From Bacteroidia bacterium (GTDB taxonomy: Bacteria; Bacteroidota; Bacteroidia; B-17B0; Aurantibacillaceae), in contig JAEUTO010000006.1 of the NCBI GenBank assembly GCA_016787785.1, positions 248,001 to 312,000 of the forward strand: DNA of 64,000 nt, read 5' to 3'. This document shows, in pieces, positions 31,041 to 43,706 of this stretch (within the stretch, counting starts at the first letter, position 1; each line of letters starts with the position of its first letter). Below the pieces are notes generated by a model. It was not told the origin of the DNA and did not search any database. It saw only the letters and a program-made list of their open reading frames with translations. The position numbers were made by a program, and so were the translations under genes.

Positions 31041-31811
31041 CTATAATTTTTTTGCTTCGTTCCAATACGTATCTAACTCTTCGAGTTTACAATCAGATAT
31101 CTGCTTGCCTTTTTCTTTTACTTTGGCTTCCATATAGCCAAAACGTTTTATGAATTTTTTGTTTGTTTGCTCCAACGCATCTTCCGGATTGATGTTTAGG
31201 AAGCGTGCATAATTTATTAATGAGAACATAACATCTCCAAATTCTTTTTCGGCAGCCTTCGTATCTTTATTTTTTATTTCTGCTTCAAACTCGTTCAACT
31301 CTTCTTTTACCTTTTCAAATACCTGACTTGGATCATCCCAATCAAAACCTACGGCGCGGGCTTTTTCTTGTATGCGGTAAGCTTTTAATAGAGCAGGCAT
31401 GCTATTTGGTACACCAGAAAGTACAGACGTGTTGCCGCCTTTTTCTTTTTGTTTTAATTGTTCCCAGTTTTGTTTTACCTGTTCTTCTGTTTCGGCTTTT
31501 ACATCGCCATAAATATGAGGATGCCTAAAAATAAGTTTCTCACATAAACCATCTATTACATCTTTTATGTCAAAAGATTTTGTCTCACTTGCAATGCGTG
31601 CATAAAAAACAATGTGCAGTAGAATATCGCCTAACTCTTTTTTAATTTCGGGTAAACTTTCCTTCAAAATAGCATCGCTCAATTCGTAAGCCTCTTCAAT
31701 TGTTAAATGCCTGATGCTTTCAATGGTTTGTTTTTTATCCCAGGGGCATTGTTCCCTAAGTTCATCCATTATTTTTAAAAGCTTTAAAAAAGAGCTTGCG
31801 CGTTCGTCCAT
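31041..31811 (-). CDS. mazG: MazG nucleoside triphosphate pyrophosphohydrolase
   Basis: House-cleaning enzyme that hydrolyses (d)NTPs or aberrant nucleotides to monophosphates. From the ATG at 31811 the product is 256 residues with two MazG units: the first shows CPWDKKQTIESI and EEAYELSDAI with the ExxE metal motif, the second KEELNEFEAEI and EKEFGDVMFSLINYAR. The ATG at 31862 would lie upstream of a perfect TAAATTTG box (31818-31825), so the shorter start is preferred. First gene of mazG-PAP2-GT39. Confidence 0.92.
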   Translation of the reverse strand: MDERASSFLKLLKIMDELREQCPWDKKQTIESIRHLTIEEAYELSDAILKESLPEIKKELGDILLHIVFYARIASETKSFDIKDVIDGLCEKLIFRHPHIYGDVKAETEEQVKQNWEQLKQKEKGGNTSVLSGVPNSMPALLKAYRIQEKARAVGFDWDDPSQVFEKVKEELNEFEAEIKNKDTKAAEKEFGDVMFSLINYARFLNINPEDALEQTNKKFIKRFGYMEAKVKEKGKQISDCKLEELDTYWNEAKKL

Positions 31812-31817
31812 ATGAAG

Positions 31818-31825
31818 CAAATTTA
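31818..31825 (-). promoter_or_regulatory. Predicted -7 box of mazG (TAAATTTG)
   Basis: Perfect TAnnTTTG, 6 nt from the ATG, predicting a leader of about 2 nt. Upstream at 31847-31862 is GTGAATTTTAAGCGCT, 15 of 16 identical to a sequence in the same position before pdhA. Confidence 0.6.
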
Positions 31826-31862
31826 ACAATTTAAAAATTTTAAAGAAGCGCTTAAAATTCAC

Positions 31863-32207
31863 AACAGGTTTATTTAACGTAATTTTTAGCGTTTATTCCA
31901 TAAATAAGCACGTTTTTGTTCAATAAAGAGGCGCTGGTTAATACTTTTCTGGAAATTTCTTGATAATAATTAATTTAGTAAAAGCTTAAAATTGCTATTT
32001 AAAATATTTTAGATTTAGGTAAAAAATGGGTAATTTCGGTAGGCAAAATAAAGGGGAGAAAATTATTCGGTAATATGCAGCAAGTTCTAATGAAAAAAAA
32101 TCAAGTTAAAACTATGGCATTAACAAACTGTATTTATTTTGTAATTATAAACGAGAAAACAAAACAATATTTGTAAAAGAGATCATCATAAGTTAATAAA
32201 AAGTAAA
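31863..32207 (+). promoter_or_regulatory. 345-bp non-coding region before the 1018-residue T9SS gene
   Basis: No gene or RNA is recognised. Two TACCGAA motifs lie at 32035-32041 and 32066-32072 (minus-strand reading). A near-consensus AATATTTG box lies about 30 bp before the ATG. Confidence 0.5.
32031..32073 (-). promoter_or_regulatory. Possible LytTR-type operator (two TACCGAA motifs 31 bp apart)
   Basis: Minus strand reads TTACCGAATAA and CTACCGAAATT, 31 bp apart (about three helical turns). The core YTACCGAAWW matches the exact 21-bp-spaced repeat at 38163-38195, where the first letter also alternates C and T. Confidence 0.4.
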
Positions 32208-35200
32208 ATGAAACAAATAGCTAGAAAAACAACAATTGCTAAAACAGTATTACTACTGGCATTTATTATTTTCAATTCAGGAAATTATTTTTCGCAAAAC
32301 TTTGTGTGGGTTAAAACATTTGGCGGACCGACCTACGATGATTGGCGGGCTACTGCAATTGATGCCAGTGGTAACGTAATTGCAGTTGGTTCTTTTTCCG
32401 GAACCGTTGATTTTGATCCTGGAGTTGGGGTAACCAATCTAACTTCAATTGCTGGTGGTGATGATATTTTTGTAATGAAGTTAACTTCTGCAGGTGCGTT
32501 GGTTTGGGCAAGAAGAATTGGCACTACAACTGATGAAGGGGCTTATGATGTTATTTGTGATGGCTCCGGCAACGTTTATGTAACGGGCTCTTATCGTGGA
32601 ACGGTTGATTTTGATCCGGGTGCAGGTACAACCAACCTTGTTTCGGCAGGAAACCAGGATTGTTTTTTGTTAAAGCTAAATTCGCTTGGAAATTTTGTTT
32701 GGGCACGATCGATGGGTGGAACTTTAGATGATTACGGTTCTGCAATTGAGATTGATGCTGCGAGCGCCAATTTATATTTAACAGGAACATATAATGGAAC
32801 AGCGGATTTTAATCCTTCTGCTGCTGTAAATAATTTAGTTTCTTATGGGGCTCAAGATGCTTGGGTTGGTAAATATGATGTAAACGGAAATTATGCTTGG
32901 GCAGTTCATCTGGGAGGAACCTCTGGTGACTACGGTTATGATTTGAAAGTTGGTGCTTCGAACAACTACGTTTATTGCATAGGAAATTTTGCAGGAACTT
33001 CTGTAACCTTAACTCCCGGATGCAGCTGCCCAACTTATTCTTCGCAGGGCGGAACTAATAGCGATATTTATTGCGTAAAATTAACTTGTAGCGGCGGTGG
33101 ATATAACTCAGTTGGATTAATTGGTGGCCCTGGTTCAGAATTTGGAGTCGGCATTACATTAGATGCGGCTGAAAATATATATCTGTGTGGGCAATTTAGT
33201 ATGGCCTGTGATATGGATCCGGGTTTTGGCACGGTAAATTTAGCTTCTGCCGGTTCTGCTGATGGATTTGTGGTTAAATTAAGTAGCACCTTTGTTCACC
33301 AATGGTCAAATAAGTGGGGCAGTACCTCTAGTGATGCGTGTACAGAATTAGATATTGATCCTTTGGGTAACCTTTATATTACGGGAAACTATAATGGTAC
33401 GGTTGATTTTGACCCAGGAGCAGGCACTTATACTTTAGCAGCCAATGGAGCTAACTCAGATTGTTACGTTATGAAATTAGACAATGGTGGCAATTTTGTT
33501 TGGGCTAAAGATTGGGGAGCAACAGGTCTCGGAGATTACGCCTCAGACATTGATATAGATGCACAAGGAAATGTGTATTCTATTGGTACTTTTTGGAGCA
33601 CGGTTGATTTCGATCCGAGCGCCGCTGTAACTAACTCAACCTCTATAGGTCAAACAGATGGTTACATTCACAAATTGAGCTGCACCTTACCCGCAACTGT
33701 TGCTACAACGCTTTCTAATTATACGTTGTGCGCAAATACAACTACTACAACACCAATTGCATTAACCGCTAGCTTGGTTGAACCAGGCACTACTTATGGT
33801 TGGAGTGCGTTAGGGGCTACCGGCATAGGATTTACACCTACAACTGGAACTGCAACTACAATCAGTTATACATCTTCAACAACTTTCAGTATTATTGTTA
33901 CAGCAACTAATGCTTGTGGAACAACTACAACTTCGGTAAATAAAATTACTGTTAATAGTTTACCTACAATTTCAACGTCAGCCTCGCCGGCTTCAGTTTG
34001 CTCGGGTAGTCTTCTTACATTAACAGCTTCCGGCGCAAATACATATACATGGAGTAATAGCGTTACAAATGCCACACCATTTACTCCAACAGGACCTCAA
34101 ACATATACTGTGCTTGGTACAAACATTAATGGTTGTATAGGTACAAAAACTATAAATGTTGGTATAATAAATAATCCTACACTTAGTATTGTTGGTAATA
34201 ATTTAGTTTGTTTAAATAAATCGAATATTTTAACAGTAAGCGGTGCCACTACCTATTCTTGGTTACCCGGTTCGGTTACCGGTAATACAATTAATGCTCA
34301 ACCTGCGTCTAATACAGTTTATACAGTAAATGCAACGGCAGCAAATGGTTGTAATAATTCTGCAACGTTTACACTTAACCTTGTTTTTCCACAAACGCCA
34401 CAAATATGTATGGTAACTGTAGATTCGTTAGGTATAAATAACGAAATTTTTTGGGAGAAAACATTGTACAGCAATGTCGACAGCTTTATTGTTTATAGAG
34501 AAACTTCAACAAATATTTATAAAAGAATAGCAGCAATTAGCAAAAACGCTTACAGTGGATACACTGACACAGCAAGAAGCGTAGGGCCGGCAAACGGAGA
34601 CCCTAATTCCACATCTTACAAGTATAAGTTGCAGTTGCGCGATAGTTGTGGCAATTATAGCGCCTTGAGTAACTGGCATCAAACTATTTTTATACAGGAT
34701 CAGCAAAATGGTAATTTTAACTGGAACTCATACGCTATTGAAAGCAGTTCTACGCCTGTAAGTGTTTACGATCTTTTTAGGATAGATCTTGCAACCAATA
34801 ACTATTCTTTAGTTACTTCAACAACAGCAGGCTTAGCTACAGACCCTCAGTATAGCCTGTGGCAAAACACTGCTAAGTGGCGTGTGCAAGCTAATGGTTT
34901 TAATTGTAATCCCACAAATAGAACAAATGGCACATTGAATCAAAAAGTTAAAACAAAAAGTAATATTAAGAATGACAGGTTGGTTGGCATAAAAAATCAC
35001 GAGTTGCTAAATGCGGCTATAACTACTTATCCTTCTCCTGCAAAAGATGTTATTTTTATAGATAGCAGAGCTTTAGCGAATATTGATATGACCATCGAAT
35101 TGCAAAATGCATTAGGACAAATAGTGTACAGTAAAAAATATGCAGCAAGTTCAAACGAAAAATATCAGATAGAAACTACAGGTTTTGCAAACGGTATTTA

Positions 35201-35264
35201 CTTTGTAAATATTAAACAGGAAAATAATACTATTGCAGTTAAGAAAATTGTTGTAAGCAAATAA
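32208..35264 (+). CDS. T9SS cargo protein with SBBP beta-propeller repeats (1018 aa)
   Basis: Secreted, probably surface-attached protein. Signal peptide about 1-30 (ending YFSQ). Residues 31-490 hold at least seven SBBP-type repeats of about 55-65 residues with the recurring GTVDFDPGAGT and GNVYVTGSY motifs, predicted to form a propeller. Ig-like/PKD-like domains follow (about 490-730). Residues 733-1018 form a block shared without gaps with two downstream genes: an FN3-like module (733-935) and a T9SS type A sorting domain (TYPSPAKDVIFID to the C-terminal KKIVVSK). No enzyme motif is seen; ligand binding or adhesion is the most likely role. Confidence 0.85.
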   Translation: MKQIARKTTIAKTVLLLAFIIFNSGNYFSQNFVWVKTFGGPTYDDWRATAIDASGNVIAVGSFSGTVDFDPGVGVTNLTSIAGGDDIFVMKLTSAGALVWARRIGTTTDEGAYDVICDGSGNVYVTGSYRGTVDFDPGAGTTNLVSAGNQDCFLLKLNSLGNFVWARSMGGTLDDYGSAIEIDAASANLYLTGTYNGTADFNPSAAVNNLVSYGAQDAWVGKYDVNGNYAWAVHLGGTSGDYGYDLKVGASNNYVYCIGNFAGTSVTLTPGCSCPTYSSQGGTNSDIYCVKLTCSGGGYNSVGLIGGPGSEFGVGITLDAAENIYLCGQFSMACDMDPGFGTVNLASAGSADGFVVKLSSTFVHQWSNKWGSTSSDACTELDIDPLGNLYITGNYNGTVDFDPGAGTYTLAANGANSDCYVMKLDNGGNFVWAKDWGATGLGDYASDIDIDAQGNVYSIGTFWSTVDFDPSAAVTNSTSIGQTDGYIHKLSCTLPATVATTLSNYTLCANTTTTTPIALTASLVEPGTTYGWSALGATGIGFTPTTGTATTISYTSSTTFSIIVTATNACGTTTTSVNKITVNSLPTISTSASPASVCSGSLLTLTASGANTYTWSNSVTNATPFTPTGPQTYTVLGTNINGCIGTKTINVGIINNPTLSIVGNNLVCLNKSNILTVSGATTYSWLPGSVTGNTINAQPASNTVYTVNATAANGCNNSATFTLNLVFPQTPQICMVTVDSLGINNEIFWEKTLYSNVDSFIVYRETSTNIYKRIAAISKNAYSGYTDTARSVGPANGDPNSTSYKYKLQLRDSCGNYSALSNWHQTIFIQDQQNGNFNWNSYAIESSSTPVSVYDLFRIDLATNNYSLVTSTTAGLATDPQYSLWQNTAKWRVQANGFNCNPTNRTNGTLNQKVKTKSNIKNDRLVGIKNHELLNAAITTYPSPAKDVIFIDSRALANIDMTIELQNALGQIVYSKKYAASSNEKYQIETTGFANGIYFVNIKQENNTIAVKKIVVSK

Positions 35265-35275
35265 TGGAACAAAAA

Positions 35276-35320
35276 TCAAAAAAGTCCGACTGATAAATGT
35301 TAGTCGGACTTTTTTTTATA
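35276..35320. terminator. Bidirectional terminator
   Basis: Stem AAAGTCCGACT / AGTCGGACTTT with a 10-nt loop and A/T runs on both sides, between the convergent T9SS gene and LytTR regulator. Confidence 0.92.
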
Positions 35321-36083
35321 ATTTTTTTAAAATTTCGAGTACCTGTTCTTTTTTTCTTCGCGATATAGGGATCTCAGAACCATCTTTCATTAAAATAAAA
35401 CCACTATCTTTTTTAATATAGGATTTTACGTGTTTTAAATTAACAAGATGCGATTGATGAACACGCTCAAAGCCATATTCTTTCAGCAGATCCTCATATT
35501 CTTTTAGGGTTTTAGACACCATTAAAGGTTTATCTTTTACAAAATAAAATGTTGTGTAATTGTGTTCCGATTCGCAACGCAAAATATCACTCACTTCACA
35601 AACCCTCATTTCAGTTAACGTTGAAAGGCAGATCTTTTTTTCAGAATCGGGTGTAGAAACATTCTCCAAAAGAACACGGTATTGATTTGGATTACCAAGT
35701 GCATTCTTTAGTACTTCGGCTTTTTGAACCGCTTCTTTTAACTCGTCGGCAATAATTGGCTTTAAAAGATAATCAACGGCACTAAATCTAAAAGCCTGTA
35801 TTGCAAATTGGTTAAACGCGGTTGTAAAAATAATGCGAAGCTCATTAAATGCATTTTTTTCGAAGTCTATCTCAAGGCTTCGTAATAGATCAAAAGCATT
35901 TCCATCCGAAAGTTGAATGTCTAAAAAAACAATATCCGGTTTAAGATCAGCAATAAGTTGTTTAGCCTCTTTTACACTACCGCAGTCACCAAGAAGTTTA
36001 ACATGTGGGCATACCTTCTCTATAATTGCTTTAAAAGCAGAGAGAAATTTTTTTTCGTCTTCTATAATAACCGCGGTTAACAA
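35316..36083 (-). CDS. LytTR-family response regulator
   Basis: 255-residue DNA-binding response regulator. The receiver domain (1-125) has acidic pocket IIEDE (8-10), phosphoacceptor Asp55 in IVFLDIQLSDG, and the conserved KPI lysine; the LytTR domain occupies about 155-255 (HNYTTFYF, RVHQSHLVNLKHV, ISRRKK). LytTR proteins bind tandem 9-12 bp direct repeats on one face of DNA. It starts at TTG, 76 bp after the partner kinase gene, and ends in a terminator. The matching operator candidate lies at 38163-38195 upstream of the kinase gene. Confidence 0.93.
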   Translation of the reverse strand: MLTAVIIEDEKKFLSAFKAIIEKVCPHVKLLGDCGSVKEAKQLIADLKPDIVFLDIQLSDGNAFDLLRSLEIDFEKNAFNELRIIFTTAFNQFAIQAFRFSAVDYLLKPIIADELKEAVQKAEVLKNALGNPNQYRVLLENVSTPDSEKKICLSTLTEMRVCEVSDILRCESEHNYTTFYFVKDKPLMVSKTLKEYEDLLKEYGFERVHQSHLVNLKHVKSYIKKDSGFILMKDGSEIPISRRKKEQVLEILKKL

Positions 36084-36159: not shown

Positions 36160-38115
36160 TTAAATATAATCTATCGGGAAGACCAATTTGACCAAAGTGC
36201 CAGATATCTGTCCGCTTGCGTCAATAACATCATTGGTTGATATTTGGATTTTTTCCTTATGCATCGAATTAATTATTTGCATCCTTTCTTCAGTAATGGT
36301 CATTGCCAAAGATTTGTGTGTATTATATACGCTTTTCCTGTTAAACGATTCTGTTTTTCCTATGCCATCGTCCTGCACTTCGCATACGAGCTGCATATCA
36401 TTTACTAAATAAAATTTTATTAAAATGTTACCGTTCTCCTCTTTTGGAATAACACCATGTAAGATGGCATTTTCAATAAATGGTTGAATGAACATGGGCG
36501 GTATCGCTATCGAATCATCCATGTGCTCATCAAGATCTATGCTAAAATTAAATTTATTATTGTAGCGTAATTGCTGTAAGAATAGATACGATTTAAGCAT
36601 TTGCGCTTCCTGCATCACCGAGACCAGTTGTTCGCGCGATTGTTCAAGATTATGGCGTATCAATCGTGAAAAGATGCCTAAATATTCTATCGCTTTTTCT
36701 TTGTCATTCTCGGAAATAAAGCCGCTGATAGATCCGAGTGAATTAAAAATAAAGTGCGGATTCATTTGTGCTGACAAAGCATTTCGTTCCAATTCAAAAT
36801 TTTTCTTTTCAAGTAAACTTTTCTTCTTTAATTGTTGGCGATTATACAAAAGAAAAATTGACAACGAAATTACGATTGCAAGGATAAATGATCCATAGAT
36901 CAATTGTTTTTGGCGTGCGTTCTCAGCGCTTTGTAACTGTTTTTCAGTTTTAAGTAGTTCAATTTCTTTTTCTTTATTTTGAGTTTCATATTTGGCTTCT
37001 AATTCTGCAATAGCTTTAAGACTTGTTTCGTTCTTAATGCTATCTTCAACGGTTTTGTATAATCTATAATAATCGTAAGCTTCTTTATAATTGTGTTTTA
37101 AGCGGTAATGGTTTGAGAAAAAAAGATAGGCTTTTCTTGTATTTAATTTGTTCCCAATTTCTTTCGACATAGTCAATTGTTTTTTATAACAATCTAAAGC
37201 ATTTTCAGGTTGTCGTAATGAGTCATAAATTACGCCCAGTTCACCATAAGTTTCGGCCACACTTTTTTTATCATTTAATTCGTTTAAAAGTGTAAGAGCG
37301 TTTCCGCTTATTTCCAACGCTTTTTTGTAATCTCCTAAAATATAATGAAGAGATCCAATATTGGCGTAGGCTAATGCTACGCCTTGTTTATCTCCAATTT
37401 CTGCATCAATTTTTAATGTAGCATTAAAATACGTGAATGCTTTCGGGTAGTTTTTTACTTGTTGGTATGCCAGTCCGATATTATTTAGGACTTCAGCGTA
37501 AAAGTAGCTATCGTTTTCTATACCTTTTACTTCAAGTATTTTTAAATAGAAGTCTAATGCTTCCGTATATTTTTCCTGAAGGTAATAGATATTTGCAATA
37601 GACATTAATGAGCCAGAGATCAGTCGACTTTCTTTTAACCCTTCTCTTATTTTTAACGCGGCCATATAATTTTCAAGTGCTTTTGCATACTGCCCTTTAT
37701 TTGAATGGATAATGCCCATATTGCTTATAATATCGGCCTCACCTTTTTTGTCATTTAATTTTTTAGTAACAACCAGCGCTTTGGAAAAAAACGCGTTGGC
37801 CTTTGAATAGTTATGCTCGTTTAAGTATGCAATACCTGTTCGGTTTAATGAAATATAGAGCCCGATCTTGTAATCAATTTTTTCGGATAAACTTTGCGAT
37901 TGTAATAGATACTCGCGTGCGCTTGTATAGTCTCTGTCACCTATAAGATAACCGCCAATATCATTTAATAATTTTACTTTGCTTGTATCTTGCTGAGTCT
38001 TTGCAAGCACCCGTTTAAGTGAATCAATGATCGCTTCATTTCTGCCAAAAGATCTTAATTGGCAAATAAACAACGTAAACAAAAAAAACCTAAACAGATA
38101 TCTATTAGAAAGCAT
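36160..38115 (-). CDS. TPR-containing LytS/YehU-type sensor histidine kinase
   Basis: 651 residues. A signal-anchor-like N-terminus, about seven tetratricopeptide repeats in the periplasm (about 60-355), a coiled segment, one membrane helix (about 406-424) and a His_kinase/HATPase module. The phosphoacceptor is His454 in AQMNPHFIFNSL, and the ATPase N box is IPPMFIQPFIENAILHG. This architecture is common in Bacteroidota, where it pairs with a LytTR regulator; the regulator gene follows directly. The periplasmic TPR domain probably senses an envelope or extracellular protein. Confidence 0.92.
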   Translation of the reverse strand: MLSNRYLFRFFLFTLFICQLRSFGRNEAIIDSLKRVLAKTQQDTSKVKLLNDIGGYLIGDRDYTSAREYLLQSQSLSEKIDYKIGLYISLNRTGIAYLNEHNYSKANAFFSKALVVTKKLNDKKGEADIISNMGIIHSNKGQYAKALENYMAALKIREGLKESRLISGSLMSIANIYYLQEKYTEALDFYLKILEVKGIENDSYFYAEVLNNIGLAYQQVKNYPKAFTYFNATLKIDAEIGDKQGVALAYANIGSLHYILGDYKKALEISGNALTLLNELNDKKSVAETYGELGVIYDSLRQPENALDCYKKQLTMSKEIGNKLNTRKAYLFFSNHYRLKHNYKEAYDYYRLYKTVEDSIKNETSLKAIAELEAKYETQNKEKEIELLKTEKQLQSAENARQKQLIYGSFILAIVISLSIFLLYNRQQLKKKSLLEKKNFELERNALSAQMNPHFIFNSLGSISGFISENDKEKAIEYLGIFSRLIRHNLEQSREQLVSVMQEAQMLKSYLFLQQLRYNNKFNFSIDLDEHMDDSIAIPPMFIQPFIENAILHGVIPKEENGNILIKFYLVNDMQLVCEVQDDGIGKTESFNRKSVYNTHKSLAMTITEERMQIINSMHKEKIQISTNDVIDASGQISGTLVKLVFPIDYI

Positions 38116-38162
38116 TTCTTAGTTATAAGTAAGCCTCTAAATATAATCAAAATAATAAAACT

Positions 38163-38195
38163 ACCGAATTGTAACTCATACTTACCGAATTGTAA
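38163..38195. promoter_or_regulatory. Predicted LytTR operator: 12-bp direct repeat, 21-bp period
   Basis: ACCGAATTGTAA occurs at 38163-38174 and again at 38184-38195, identical at all 12 positions and 21 bp apart start to start. Two repeats on the same helical face with about two-turn spacing is the known site geometry of LytTR regulators such as AgrA. It lies between the divergent kinase gene and the 925-residue T9SS gene, about 30 bp upstream of a near-consensus -7 box. Confidence 0.65.
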
Positions 38196-38224
38196 ATGAG
38201 GGTTAAAGACCCTCTCTTTTGTTC

Positions 38225-38232
38225 TAACTTTA
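38225..38232 (+). promoter_or_regulatory. Candidate -7 box TAACTTTA of the 925-aa T9SS gene
   Basis: Seven of eight matches to TAnnTTTG; no -33 TTTG at the correct spacing, which fits a promoter that needs an activator bound at the upstream direct repeat. Confidence 0.4.
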
Positions 38233-38278
38233 GAAGGAATTTTTACGTAATACTAAAAGAACAACTAAACTATATCAA

Positions 38279-41056
38279 ATGAAAAGAAAAATTACTACCA
38301 ACACTTTTAAGAGATCATTACTAATAATTGGATTTATTTTTGGAACTGCTTTTAGCAATGGCGGTTCATCATTTGCGCAGGCCTGGCAGTGGGCTTTTTC
38401 TGGCGCGGGCGCTGCTGCAGATTACTCGGGTAGTTCATGTGTGGACGCTTCAGGGAATCTTATAACAACCGGTACCTTTTACAGCAACCCGCTTCAAATG
38501 GGTACGGTAACTTTAAATAATTCGGGATCATCCGGTTCAGATGCTTATATAGCTAAGTTAAGTCCAAGCGGAACGGTGATCTGGGCAAATAAAATTGGAG
38601 GACCAAACAATGAATCAATTACAGGTGTTTCTACCGACGCAAGTGGAAATATTTATGTACTCGGATATTATAATAGTGCATTCTTAACGGTTGCACCTTT
38701 GAGCGTAAGCAATTTTACAAATAACTTAACCTACGATATTTTTGTGGCATGTTACAACTCGGCCGGACTTATTCAATGGTTTAAGTCTTACGGCGGGGCA
38801 AAAGATGAGCAAACAGGTGGGTGTGTTTATTCAAACTCACTTTCTTGTTTATACATTGCCGGTAGTTTTTATTCGACTTCATTTACAGCAGGAACAAATA
38901 CAGTAACAAATAGCGATGTTACCGGAAATAATCCTGATATTTTTTTAGCGAAGCTTACCAATACTGTTGTAAACTGGGCAAAAGCAACAGGCTCAAGTAC
39001 GAGTCAGGATCGTGCTTCAAAAATGGCAATTGATTCAAACTCTGATCCATATTTTATTGGAACCATTGCACCCAATTCAAACACAACTGTAATAGGCGTA
39101 ACCACTCTTACTACTTATGGTGGGCAGGATATTGTTTTTGCGAAATATAATTCGTCAGGTACACCCGTTTGGTCTAAGAATGTGGGAGGATCTATTAATT
39201 GTACCTGCGATTTCGCAGGAGGAATAGGCGTTGATGCGTCTAACAATGTGTTCCTGAGTGGAACGTACATCGGGGCATCTTTAGTTGCCGGTACATTTAC
39301 TTTAACCAACTCTGGCGGCTATGATTGTTTTGCAGCCAAAACAAACTCTCTGGGTGTTTTTCAATGGATCAATAAAGTAGGTGGCTTAGGTGATCAATAT
39401 AGTAATGATGTAACAAATGACGTAACTGGAAATGTATTTATTACGGGATCTTTTTCGGGTACCAACATAGTTGTTGGAACGACTACTTTAAACAATTCTA
39501 CTCCAGGTATAAATACCGAGATCTATGTTGTAAAATATAACAATGCAGGTACTCCGCAATGGGCTATATCAGCTGCCGGCGCGAATAATGATGAACAAGG
39601 TAACGATCTTTCATGCGATGCCGGTGGAAATGTTTATGTTACCGGAAATATTTATACATCGCCAACCGTGTTTGGTACGTCAACAATTACAAGCACAGGT
39701 GTTAACGATGTTTTTGCGGCAAGAATAAGTTGTTTAACCAATACCATTAGTGGTGTTAGCAGTGTTTGTCAGGGTTCTTCCACAACTCTAACAGCAACGG
39801 GTGCCACTACATACACATGGAGCACGGGTGCAACCGGTTCATCCATTGTTGTTACACCAACTGCTAATACAACTTATTCTTTAACTGGCTCAAGCGGTGC
39901 TTGCTCAAATACAAGTACACCTTTCTCGGTAACGTTTTTACCGGCTAGCATAAATACAGGATCAAATTTAAATTTATTATGTAGTGTGCCGCAACCAATA
40001 AGTGTTACCACAAATCCTTCAACACCAACTTTAGTTGTTTGGACGCCTACAACTGGTTTAAGTAGTAGCTCTGTTTTAACACCTACCGTTATTGCTCCTT
40101 CAGCTTCAACCCAATATACCGTAACAGCAAATTTAGCTAATGGTTGCGTGGCAAGTGGCACTTTACTGGTAACGCAATATGCTCAAAAACCGGACATTTG
40201 CTTAGCTACTGTAGATACTTTAGGTTTTAATAACGAGATCTTTTGGGATAAAACTTTGTACACTAGTGTAGATAGTTTTATTGTTTATCGCGAAGTAAGT
40301 ACAAATATTTATAAACGCATTGCAGCAATAAGTGTTAACGCTTATAGCGGGTTTACCGACACAGTAAGAAGTGTTGGTCCAGCAAATGGCGACCCAAATA
40401 CAACCTCATACAAATATAAATTACAGATCCGCGACCTTTGTGGTAATTATAGCGCAATGAGTTATTGGCATCAAACTATTTTTATACAAGATCAGCAAAA
40501 CGGAAATTTTAACTGGAACTCTTATGCTATTGAAAGTAGCGTAACCCCTGTAAGTGTTTACGATCTATTTAGGATCGATCTTGCAACCAATGGCTATACT
40601 TTGGTTACGTCAACTACCGGAGGCTTGGCAACCGATCCGCAATACAATGCGTTTCAAACTTCCGCCAAATGGCGTGTGCAGGCCAATGGTTTTAATTGTA
40701 ATCCAACCAATAGAACAAACAGTACATTAAATCAAAAAATTAAAACAAAAAGCAATATTAAGAACGATAGATTGGTAGGAATAAAAAATTATGAGTTAAT
40801 GAATTCGTTAATTAGCACATATCCTTCTCCCGCAAAAGATGTTGTTTTTATTGACAGCAGGGCTTTGGCTAATGTTGATATTGAAATTGAAATGCAAAAC
40901 ACGCTTGGACAAACAATATTCTCTAAAAAATATACTGCAAGTTCAACCGAAAAATATCAAATAGAAACTTCAGCTTTTGCAAATGGTGTTTATTTTATTA
41001 ACATCAAACAACAAAATAAAACTGTTGCTGTTAAGAAAATTGTTATAAGTAAATAA
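38279..41056 (+). CDS. T9SS cargo protein with SBBP-like repeats (925 aa)
   Basis: Secreted, probably surface-anchored protein. Signal peptide to about residue 34 (ending SSFAQ). Residues 35-490 carry repeated SBBP-like units of about 60-65 residues (AKLSPSGTVIWANKIGG, GNIYVLGYY, GNVFITGSFSG), predicted propeller; an Ig-like domain (about 490-560) and a second beta domain (about 560-635) follow. Residues 640-925 are the shared 286-residue C-terminal block with FN3-like module and sorting domain, about four fifths identical to that of the 1018-residue protein by eye. Divergent from the sensor kinase and preceded by the predicted LytTR site. Confidence 0.85.
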   Translation: MKRKITTNTFKRSLLIIGFIFGTAFSNGGSSFAQAWQWAFSGAGAAADYSGSSCVDASGNLITTGTFYSNPLQMGTVTLNNSGSSGSDAYIAKLSPSGTVIWANKIGGPNNESITGVSTDASGNIYVLGYYNSAFLTVAPLSVSNFTNNLTYDIFVACYNSAGLIQWFKSYGGAKDEQTGGCVYSNSLSCLYIAGSFYSTSFTAGTNTVTNSDVTGNNPDIFLAKLTNTVVNWAKATGSSTSQDRASKMAIDSNSDPYFIGTIAPNSNTTVIGVTTLTTYGGQDIVFAKYNSSGTPVWSKNVGGSINCTCDFAGGIGVDASNNVFLSGTYIGASLVAGTFTLTNSGGYDCFAAKTNSLGVFQWINKVGGLGDQYSNDVTNDVTGNVFITGSFSGTNIVVGTTTLNNSTPGINTEIYVVKYNNAGTPQWAISAAGANNDEQGNDLSCDAGGNVYVTGNIYTSPTVFGTSTITSTGVNDVFAARISCLTNTISGVSSVCQGSSTTLTATGATTYTWSTGATGSSIVVTPTANTTYSLTGSSGACSNTSTPFSVTFLPASINTGSNLNLLCSVPQPISVTTNPSTPTLVVWTPTTGLSSSSVLTPTVIAPSASTQYTVTANLANGCVASGTLLVTQYAQKPDICLATVDTLGFNNEIFWDKTLYTSVDSFIVYREVSTNIYKRIAAISVNAYSGFTDTVRSVGPANGDPNTTSYKYKLQIRDLCGNYSAMSYWHQTIFIQDQQNGNFNWNSYAIESSVTPVSVYDLFRIDLATNGYTLVTSTTGGLATDPQYNAFQTSAKWRVQANGFNCNPTNRTNSTLNQKIKTKSNIKNDRLVGIKNYELMNSLISTYPSPAKDVVFIDSRALANVDIEIEMQNTLGQTIFSKKYTASSTEKYQIETSAFANGVYFINIKQQNKTVAVKKIVISK

Positions 41057-41070
41057 CTTTAAATTGAGGT

Positions 41071-41107
41071 AAAAGCCTGGTTAGTTTTAGTAATTAACCG
41101 GGCTTTT
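41071..41107 (+). terminator. Terminator after the 925-aa T9SS gene
   Basis: Stem AAAAGCCTGGTTA / TTAACCGGGCTTTT with a loop of about 10 nt, one wobble/mismatch. Confidence 0.8.
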
Positions 41108-41186
41108 GCTATTATAGTGTTAATTATTTAAGGAATAACTCAATTTTAACTTTTACCAATATCATTGGGGATAACTCAGAGCTATT

Positions 41187-41221
41187 TTTGAATTTTTGAA
41201 GGAGATTTTTCACTAAATTCG
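41187..41221 (+). promoter_or_regulatory. Predicted promoter of the 817-aa T9SS gene
   Basis: TTTG (41187-41190), 23-nt spacer, TAAATTCG (41214-41221), 31 nt before the ATG. Upstream, the 7-mer TAACTCA occurs twice (41136 and 41172) and once at 38172 next to the LytTR repeat. Confidence 0.5.
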
Positions 41222-41252
41222 ATACTGATTTCAATAAACTAATACTATCATC

Positions 41253-43706
41253 ATGAAAAAAAATTTACTAAGTTTTATTTTTTTGCTTTTTGCAGGTATT
41301 ACCTTTGCTCAAACCGTTCCAAATGGTGGTTTTGAGAGTTGGGTAGTTAACGCATATGAAAACCCACAAGGGTTTCAGACGTCTAATTACAAATTAGATA
41401 ATGGCGTACAAAGTCCGGTTAATGCAACCAAAGTAACGGATGCCTACCAGGGTTCTTTTGCTTTAAAGTTAACTACATCGGCGGTACCAAGCGGCACTGC
41501 TTTTGCTTTTTTTGCAAATGGTAATCCGGGTTCAAATCCAACAGGCGGAATTCCCTATTCACAAAAGCCAACTGGTATAAAATTCTTTTACAAGAGCAAT
41601 ATTATGCCTACTGATACGGCGATATTTTTAACGATCTTCAAAAAAGCAGGCGCAGTTGTTGGAAGTTATTTTTACAAGATCGCAACCACACACACAACCT
41701 ATACTTTATTTAATCAAACGCTTAATCCGGCTTTACCGGTTTTTCCTGATACAGTTATTATTGCTTCAGCGTCAAGTAATGCATTTAGTGGTAATGCAAT
41801 TCCGGGTAACAGTCTTCAGTTGGATAGTATTTCTTTTACAGGTGTAGCTTTTCAACCGGCAAATTTAAATGGCAACTTCGAACAATGGCAAACCGAAACA
41901 GATTATAAATTAAATGGATGGAATTTAAATGGCGGTTTTCAGCGTACCAGTGATAAATATTCGGGAAATTATGCACTTGAACTACAAACGGTTCCTCCTT
42001 CATTTGGTGATAACCAGGTACGAGTTGGAAGGGCAGGTACAGGTATACCTACACCAAGTACTACACTTGGTGGCACACCTTATTCCGGGCAGATAGACAC
42101 AATGTTTTTGTACTATAAATATTTACCATCTAATCCACTTGATAGCGCGAGGGTTTTTATTAATTTTAAAAAGAATTTTGTTTACATTGGAGGTGGAGGC
42201 TTGACGCTTTTACCACAAGCGCCAGTTTACACATTGAAAAAGATCCCGTGGAATCTTGCTATTGCACCTGATACAATGGTAATTTCAATGGAGTCGTCAA
42301 AGTTTCCGGTTCAAAATTCTTTTGTAGGCGCCGATTTTAAGATCGACAATATGTATCTAAAATCGCAAATGTACACTGTATCAAATTTTACAATGCCAAC
42401 AACAGGTTGCGTAGGGCAGGTTATTAATTTAACTGACAACTCAACAAATATGCCCAGTAACTGGAACTGGATCATGCCAGGAGGTTCGCCATCGAGTTCA
42501 ATTTTACAAAGCCCTAGTGTTACTTTTAATACACCAGGCACAAAAACCATTACTATGAACGCAGGTAATCAATTTGGAAGCGGCGCATCTATTTCAAAAA
42601 CCATTACTATTTATTCAGTACCGGGTATTGCCGCAACATCTATTCTTACCTGTGGTGGTGGTAGTGTAACGCTCAATGCAAGTGGCGCAACTACTTATAC
42701 CTGGAGTACAGGACAAACCAGTCAAAATATTACTGTAAGCGCTTCAAACTCTATCACTACAAATTATACGGTAATGGGTACAACCGGTGGATGTACCAAT
42801 TCAGCAGTTGGCAGTGTTATTATACCATTTGTGGAAGTGCCAAGTATCTGTTTGGTGACAGTAGATTCACTTGGAGACAACAATGTTATTTATTGGGAAA
42901 AAACCTTATATGATAACGTAGATAGTTTTATTGTTTATCGCGAGATATATAATAACGTTTATAAGCGTATTGCTGCCGTTAGTAAAAATGCGTTTAGCGG
43001 CTATACAGATACTGCAAGAAGCATTGGCCCTGCTAACGGCGATCCTAATACTACAGCATACAGATATAAGCTGCAAATTCGCGACACCTGTGGACATTAT
43101 GGCGTGTTAAGCAAATGGCATCAAACCCTTTTTATACAAGATCAGCAGAATGGAAATTTTAACTGGAATTCATATGCTATTGAGAATAGTACTTCACCGG
43201 TTACTGTTTATGATCTTTATAGAATAAGTTTAAGTAACAATACATACACGTTAGTTGCATCAACTACTGCATTTCTTGCAACAGATCCTCAATATGGTTT
43301 ATGGCAAACCACTGCCAAATGGCGTATTGAGGCAAATGGTTTTAATTGCAATCCAACAAACCGAACCAATGGCATCTTAAGCCAAAAGGTTAAAACAAAA
43401 AGTAATATTAAGAATGATAGGTTAGTAGGAATAAAAAATTATGAATTAATGAATGCTTCTGTCACCACTTACCCTTCTCCTGCAAAAGATGTTGTTTTTA
43501 TTGACGGTAGAACTTTAGCCAATATTGATTTCAATGTTGAATTGCAAAATACATTAGGACAAGTTATCTATAGCAAAAATTATTCTGCCAGTTCAAACGA
43601 AAAATATCAAATAGATATGAATGCCTTTACTAACGGCGTTTATTTTGTAAATCTTAAACGCAATAATCAAACCTTTGCAGTTAAAAAGATAGTAGTTAAT
43701 AAATAA
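41253..43706 (+). CDS. T9SS cargo protein with two PCMD-like domains and PKD (817 aa)
   Basis: Secreted protein with signal peptide (1-20, ending TFAQ). Two tandem jelly-roll-like domains (about 21-205 and 206-372), each starting with NGGFESW / NGNFEQWQ and containing a TGIKFFYKS / IDTMFLYYKY strand, resemble Bacteroidota putative carbohydrate-binding (PCMD-like) domains. A PKD domain (about 378-455, NWIMPGGSPSSS) and an Ig-like domain (about 455-528) follow. Residues 532-817 are the shared 286-residue C-terminal block. So the head differs from those of the 1018- and 925-residue proteins while the tail is the same. Confidence 0.83.
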   Translation: MKKNLLSFIFLLFAGITFAQTVPNGGFESWVVNAYENPQGFQTSNYKLDNGVQSPVNATKVTDAYQGSFALKLTTSAVPSGTAFAFFANGNPGSNPTGGIPYSQKPTGIKFFYKSNIMPTDTAIFLTIFKKAGAVVGSYFYKIATTHTTYTLFNQTLNPALPVFPDTVIIASASSNAFSGNAIPGNSLQLDSISFTGVAFQPANLNGNFEQWQTETDYKLNGWNLNGGFQRTSDKYSGNYALELQTVPPSFGDNQVRVGRAGTGIPTPSTTLGGTPYSGQIDTMFLYYKYLPSNPLDSARVFINFKKNFVYIGGGGLTLLPQAPVYTLKKIPWNLAIAPDTMVISMESSKFPVQNSFVGADFKIDNMYLKSQMYTVSNFTMPTTGCVGQVINLTDNSTNMPSNWNWIMPGGSPSSSILQSPSVTFNTPGTKTITMNAGNQFGSGASISKTITIYSVPGIAATSILTCGGGSVTLNASGATTYTWSTGQTSQNITVSASNSITTNYTVMGTTGGCTNSAVGSVIIPFVEVPSICLVTVDSLGDNNVIYWEKTLYDNVDSFIVYREIYNNVYKRIAAVSKNAFSGYTDTARSIGPANGDPNTTAYRYKLQIRDTCGHYGVLSKWHQTLFIQDQQNGNFNWNSYAIENSTSPVTVYDLYRISLSNNTYTLVASTTAFLATDPQYGLWQTTAKWRIEANGFNCNPTNRTNGILSQKVKTKSNIKNDRLVGIKNYELMNASVTTYPSPAKDVVFIDGRTLANIDFNVELQNTLGQVIYSKNYSASSNEKYQIDMNAFTNGVYFVNLKRNNQTFAVKKIVVNK

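Follow-up and report, generated by a model that had tools for sequence, protein, structure and literature searches.

The window, that is, the whole 64,000-nucleotide stretch of DNA analyzed here, contains a two-component gene pair that lies among genes for T9SS cargo proteins. The histidine kinase gene (36160..38115, minus strand), whose product combines TPR repeats with a LytS-type His_kinase domain (PF06580), is divergent from a plus-strand gene (38279..41056) for a 925-aa T9SS cargo protein, the predicted target of the site described below, with a Por_Secre_tail sorting domain (PF18962, E 2.3e-13) at residues 848-923. As the sequence-only reading had it, a LytTR response regulator is encoded beside the kinase: the product of 35316..36083 (minus strand), the predicted binder of the site, consists of receiver (PF00072, E 5.3e-14) and LytTR (PF04397, E 1.4e-18) domains, all these assignments coming from Pfam. 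A search of solved structures with this regulator gave 35 matches, most of them covering the receiver domain, and no LytTR-DNA complex for contact mapping was among the three alignments listed. Three T9SS cargo ORFs (32208-35264, 38279-41056, and 41253-43706) surround the kinase-regulator pair and have very similar C-terminal regions, those at 32208 and 41253 also carrying Por_Secre_tail (Pfam), so that the arrangement looks as it might after local duplication. The genome as a whole encodes at least 150 T9SS sorting tails (150 of the 249 candidates were scored, and 150 of 150 matched).

The 163-bp gap between the divergent kinase and cargo genes (38116-38278), where an operator had been placed and where the ORFs are as described, contains the 13-bp word TACCGAATTGTAA twice on the plus strand. 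The upstream (38162..38174) and downstream (38183..38195) half-sites are identical at all 13 positions, and their starts are 21 bp apart. The original claim was of an exact 12-bp direct repeat with a 21-bp period; the period is, indeed, exactly 21 bp, whereas the word is 13 bp long. The gap thus holds two direct repeats with a period in the 21-22 bp range that characterizes LytTR operators. Admittedly, the gap is AT-rich and single words are common, which would suit a chance repeat or a functionless relic, but the base composition of the gap predicts 3e-5 13-base identities at period 21 (2e-3 when all periods between 10 and 99 are allowed), and the pair has been conserved while the background diverged (see below); a chance repeat is rejected on these two grounds, and the probability of this explanation, relic included, is negligible. 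The exact TACCGAATTGTAA pair occurs once in the whole 4.6-Mb genome. The single word was also considered as a signal and rejected: with up to two mismatches, it occurs 12 times in the window vs 10.3 expected, and with up to one mismatch, 17 times in the whole genome vs 12 for the reversed control. Given that single words occur at ordinary frequency, the signal is the pair, not the word.

Among 60 genomes searched, kinase orthologues were identified in two, denoted G034 and G021 (75% and 59% identity, respectively), the next matches being at most 35% identical over the full length; a third orthologue, 48% identical, is encoded in JAUXTT010000008.1 (locus L095, genome G420). In each of these three orthologous loci, the upstream half-site is kept, a pair with period 21 adjoins the kinase gene, and this pair is directed at a Por_Secre_tail gene. 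Agreement with the window word extends over 25 (G034), 22 (G021, counted in register; a gapped alignment gives 24), and 20 (L095) of the 26 positions, whereas in the remainder of the window gap 79 of 137 aligned bases are alike in G034 and 72 of 137 in G021 (the first 190-200 bp of their gaps were used for the alignment). Conservation in orthologous loci had been set beforehand as a check on the predicted operator, and the retention of the pair and of its 21-bp period in 3 of 3 loci, against the diverged rest of the gap, supports that interpretation. The distance from the site to the cargo start is 339 bp in G034 and 66 to 84 bp in the other orthologous loci.

The pair could, alternatively, mainly control the divergent kinase and regulator genes, through autoregulation or repression, with the cargo gene being incidental. 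The site begins 47 bp from the kinase start, a related pair in Lacinutrix algicola (L099) faces the kinase gene and is accompanied by a -7-like box, and several period-21 pairs in the named loci discussed below precede regulator genes. However, the pair faces the cargo gene in 4 of 4 orthologous loci, whereas its distance from the kinase start varies between 37 bp (G034) and 170 bp (L095), and further copies precede cargo genes located away from the kinase. Accordingly, we consider predominant control of the kinase side unlikely, although the cargo and kinase genes may both be controlled.

The geometry of the predicted cargo promoter provides another line of evidence. A -7-like box, TAACTTTA (38225..38232, plus strand), which fits TAnnTTTG at 5 of 6 positions, starts 29 nt past the site. 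When boxes are defined by TA plus at least 5 of the 6 positions of TAnnTTTG, one starts at exactly this offset in 6 of 13 sites (pattern matches and orthologous-locus sites, weaker ones included), with further boxes at 31 (one site) and 28 (one site); in 5000 dinucleotide-preserving shuffles, the largest count at any offset was 4, and 0 of 5000 reached 6. For the more distant regulators of L099 and L051, a hand count puts this box at about 30. The recurrence of this fixed distance bears out the claim that the site sits about 30 bp upstream of a near-consensus -7 box and is in line with the suggestion that the promoter is built for activation. With the 29-nt offset, the site falls directly ahead of the -35/-33 region of the predicted promoter, as in LytTR operators, and would fit the position expected for an activator that acts immediately upstream of a weak -33 element. 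Between the pair and the -7 box, an inverted repeat, GAGGGT-TAAAG-ACCCTC (38198-38214), was spotted by eye, and a different palindrome, CCTTAACATTAAGG, is found at about the matching place in G034 (L174, 10582-10595); these palindromes possibly reflect chance or the binding of a second factor.

In a search of seven genomes at E <= 1e-60, orthologues of the regulator were found in G034 (88% identity), G021 (77%), and G420 (56%), and were absent from G020, G033, and G303; among the matches listed for the 395 genomes of the class, a regulator with more than 50% identity is encoded, besides the genome of this window (G000), by G034 alone. The pattern CCGAATTGTAA-N10-CCGAATTGTAA, with up to three mismatches, has 17 matches in 60 genomes (two in G000, four in G034, five in G021, and one in each of six others), so that 11 of the 17 fall in G000, G034, and G021, the genomes with a regulator orthologue; the reversed control yields two matches in the 60 genomes and none in these three. 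With at most one mismatch, the refined pattern RCCRAAWTGTA-N10-RCCRAAWTGTA has 16 matches in 10 of the 395 genomes of the class (two in G000, four in G034, a tandem run of three in G303, and seven singles), compared with five for its reversed control, none of these in G000 or G034. Ten of the 16 matches come from eight genomes other than G000 and G034, and in G303, the one of the eight that was searched for the regulator (E <= 1e-60), it is absent. Weak matches to the refined pattern are meaningless because, at up to three mismatches in five genomes, they are fewer (19) than those of the reversed control (31).

Pattern scans of this genome recovered two pairs only and, hence, no larger regulon. 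The second pair (C13:89743-89776, corresponding to L183 5244-5277) is located between the genes for a small CARDB/T9SS protein and comM, is directed at comM, with the T9SS gene on the opposite side, and has no -7-like box near offset 29. The 34-bp orthologue of this site in G020 is identical, spacer included, even though G020 has no regulator orthologue, and from these sequence comparisons, it is a clear exception to the co-occurrence of site and regulator. The T9SS gene next to the G020 site is broken over several frames, so that this site may be a relic. Such observations bear on the possibility that the pair is the operator of a different regulator, either another LytTR paralogue or an AraC-type protein. 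A spacing of about 21 bp between direct sites is also compatible with binding by AraC-type proteins, the 29 LytTR domains encoded in this genome offer other candidate binders, and the site is retained in G020 in the manner just described. Nevertheless, the concentration of matches in genomes that have the regulator orthologue, together with the location of the site next to the locus of this regulator in 4 of 4 orthologous loci, makes a different binder improbable.

In five genomes, 11 sites deviate from the refined pattern at no more than one position, and 7 of them are directed at Por_Secre_tail genes (one in the window, four in G034, and one each in G021 and G420). Two sites in G021 face ORFs without a Pfam match, whose N-termini resemble signal peptides by eye, and two more, the C13 site and its G020 orthologue, face comM, with the T9SS gene on the other side. 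In G034, pairs precede relatives of the cargo ORFs 32208 and 41253, whereas here just the middle ORF has a pair, none being present in the stretches scanned upstream of the T9SS paralogues at 32208 (31701-32260) and 41253 (41051-41270).

The LytTR regulator encoded at 35316-36083 very probably uses the pair as its operator, through which it would switch on the T9SS cargo gene at 38279. The pair is conserved, co-occurs with the regulator, and lies at a fixed distance from the -7 box, all of which supports the prediction of a LytTR operator that controls a T9SS surface protein. Under the proposed scenario, the TPR kinase would detect a signal and then phosphorylate the LytTR regulator, which would dock as a dimer onto both repeats along the same side of the DNA, between about 63 and 30 nt ahead of the -7 box; from there, it would draw RNA polymerase to a promoter that lacks a good -33 element, and expression of the cargo gene would ensue. 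We infer that the regulator activates rather than represses, and any influence on the kinase gene is likewise to be understood as putative.

The site belongs to an already known kind of operator. The premise that LytTR regulators bind direct repeats about 21 bp apart is in accord with published operators, which share this period and are located just before the promoter, binding having been demonstrated by EMSA in the case of Streptococcus mutans HdrR (PMC6193735). In the S. mutans LRS systems (HdrR, BrsR), 9-bp direct repeats mostly have 12 bp between them, for a period of 21, and are positioned 4-11 bp upstream of the -35 element, with positive control proposed, all of which resembles the arrangement in the window. 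The differences are that the S. mutans half-sites are words such as ACCACTTAT, compared with ACCGAATTG here, that the regulator partners with a membrane protein, whereas here it is the response regulator of a kinase, and that the targets are bacteriocin genes along with the regulator's own operon (PMC6193735). By eye, the TACCGAATTGTAA half-site has ACC in common with the published ACCACTTAT-like words, and most of the rest differs.

The LRS-like operons of Bacteroides thetaiotaomicron and B. ovatus come from the same phylum as the host here, and in B. thetaiotaomicron, repeats TCCGGTATTCA/ACCGGAAATCA lie 11 bp before a TGTA-19-TATCTTTG promoter, a geometry close to the present one; unlike the site in the window, however, these operons have 11 bp between 11-bp repeats, that is, a period of 22, and a regulator with transmembrane segments that is presumed to act on its own operon, and T9SS is not mentioned in the available portion of the paper (PMC6193735). 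Staphylococcus aureus AgrA, at P2/P3, is similarly a LytTR response regulator that binds as a dimer to two direct repeats, at sites that immediately precede promoters whose core is suboptimal, although the host, the promoter type, and the targets are all different (PMC4227749). The PorXY-SigP system of Porphyromonas gingivalis is comparable in that a two-component pair controls type IX secretion genes, but PorX, which has a PglZ domain, binds SigP rather than DNA, the targets named are T9SS component genes, and the text does not use the term LytTR (PMC7712824). A literature search limited mainly to non-subscription papers returned no paper that describes a LytTR operator in front of a T9SS cargo gene and, because of that scope, gives weak support to the novelty of the link between LytTR and T9SS cargo. 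The literature searched contains little on LytTR targets in Bacteroidota, for which the locus analyzed here offers a concrete, conserved candidate target of a LytTR pair as well as a route to the targets of other such pairs, by way of period-21 direct repeats beside regulator genes. The connection with T9SS cargo, furthermore, points to a possible mechanism for the selective deployment of surface proteins.

A scan of intergenic DNA looked for direct repeats of 12 bases, 11 or more of them identical, at periods 13-39. At the other 28 LytTR domains of the genome (27 loci), five repeats have period 21 and two fall at the other 26 periods together, compared with none at period 21 and nine at other periods in 400 kb of control regions from the same genome. 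Seventy-nine loci from titled records, all of which encode kinase relatives, contain 19 repeats at period 21 and 35 elsewhere, with at most 4 per other period. These 19 hits include one tandem in L144 that is counted twice, the related L096 and L097, five homologous loci (L149 at 3895, L159, L165, L169, and L170), and three hits far from the regulator (L116, L160, and L149 at 7313), and about ten are both independent and close to the regulator. Under a looser rule (10 of 12), period 21 is still the highest, if less sharply so, with 14 repeats at the LytTR loci of this genome (next, 6) and 45 in the 79 loci (next, 19), the own-genome control having 4 at period 21 and 6 at the highest period.

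Six loci of this genome, the window included, have a period-21 repeat, and in four of the six (the window, L241, L242, and L244), its neighbor is a Por_Secre_tail gene; the neighbors in L253 and L260 encode, respectively, a beta-propeller protein without the tail and an outer-membrane efflux protein. Among seven genes beside pairs in the 79 loci, the tail is encoded by four (L154, L162, L166, and L099, where the gene comes after that of the regulator and is preceded by a second pair, which was found by its word) and by none in L097, L118, and L116. Other LytTR regulators, in this genome and in its relatives, appear to be associated with other words at the same 21-bp period. Conceivably, Bacteroidota genomes contain parallel modules in which a sensor kinase and a LytTR regulator are matched with an operator word of their own, with the 21-bp period, and in many cases with a single T9SS surface protein, a generalization that we put forward tentatively and regard as somewhat doubtful. 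If it is true, each gene of the surface coat would be selected individually via an operator of its own, orphan LytTR regulators could be assigned to targets by sequence alone, via the adjoining repeats, and, given enough loci, a recognition code could be read. The wider pattern, with period-21 pairs, differing words, and a frequent T9SS neighbor, is the more interesting outcome. In the flavobacterial loci L149, L159, L165, L169, and L170, a common, TGTATAATTGGT-like period-21 pair is located upstream of the regulator gene, which suggests autoregulation.

The half-site words are alike where the regulators are close relatives, and there is no clear trend without close relatives. Along a series of regulators whose LytTR domains are 92% (G034), 82% (G021), 61% (L095), 51% (L099), and 51% (L051) identical to that of the window regulator, the word shifts from ACCGAATTGTAA via RCCRAAWTGTA to ATCRAATTCTAA. 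CACTTA-like words are found in L241, L242, L243, L189, and L206; the regulators of L241, L242, and L243, all from this genome, are 61-71% alike and are adjoined by CACTTAT-like words, whereas the L240 gap has no CACTTAT-like pair, though its regulator is 59-63% like those of L241 and L242. For 25 of 28 hand-picked sites (the script assigned no regulator to the other three), a list biased by the hand-picking and by the inclusion of L174, L177, L095, L051, and L243, which were found via their words, LytTR-domain identity correlates with half-site similarity at r 0.62 (0 of 20000 permutations). Of the 27 sites from the blind period-21 scans, 24 are usable (the rule applied by the script assigns no regulator to L260, L154, and L156) and give r 0.39 (0 of 20000); the value declines to 0.23 (243 of 20000) for pairs with less than 65% identity and to 0.18 (1505 of 20000) in a set of 19 sites in which two homologous groups are each represented by a single member. 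Because r falls to 0.18 in this reduced set, the likeness of words among close regulators is inseparable from shared descent, and the comparison yields no recognition code beyond it. Pairs of TCACTTAW with up to one mismatch number eight, vs one in the control; two of these are beside the L241 and L242 regulators, one is about 8 kb beyond L241, and two, overlapping, are beside L254. In L254 (5150-5201), the LytTR regulator gene is directly followed by three consecutive TCACTTAT-type half-sites, and a TCACTTAT-type pair precedes a 202-aa lipoprotein-like ORF of this genome (L289, 1501-1529).
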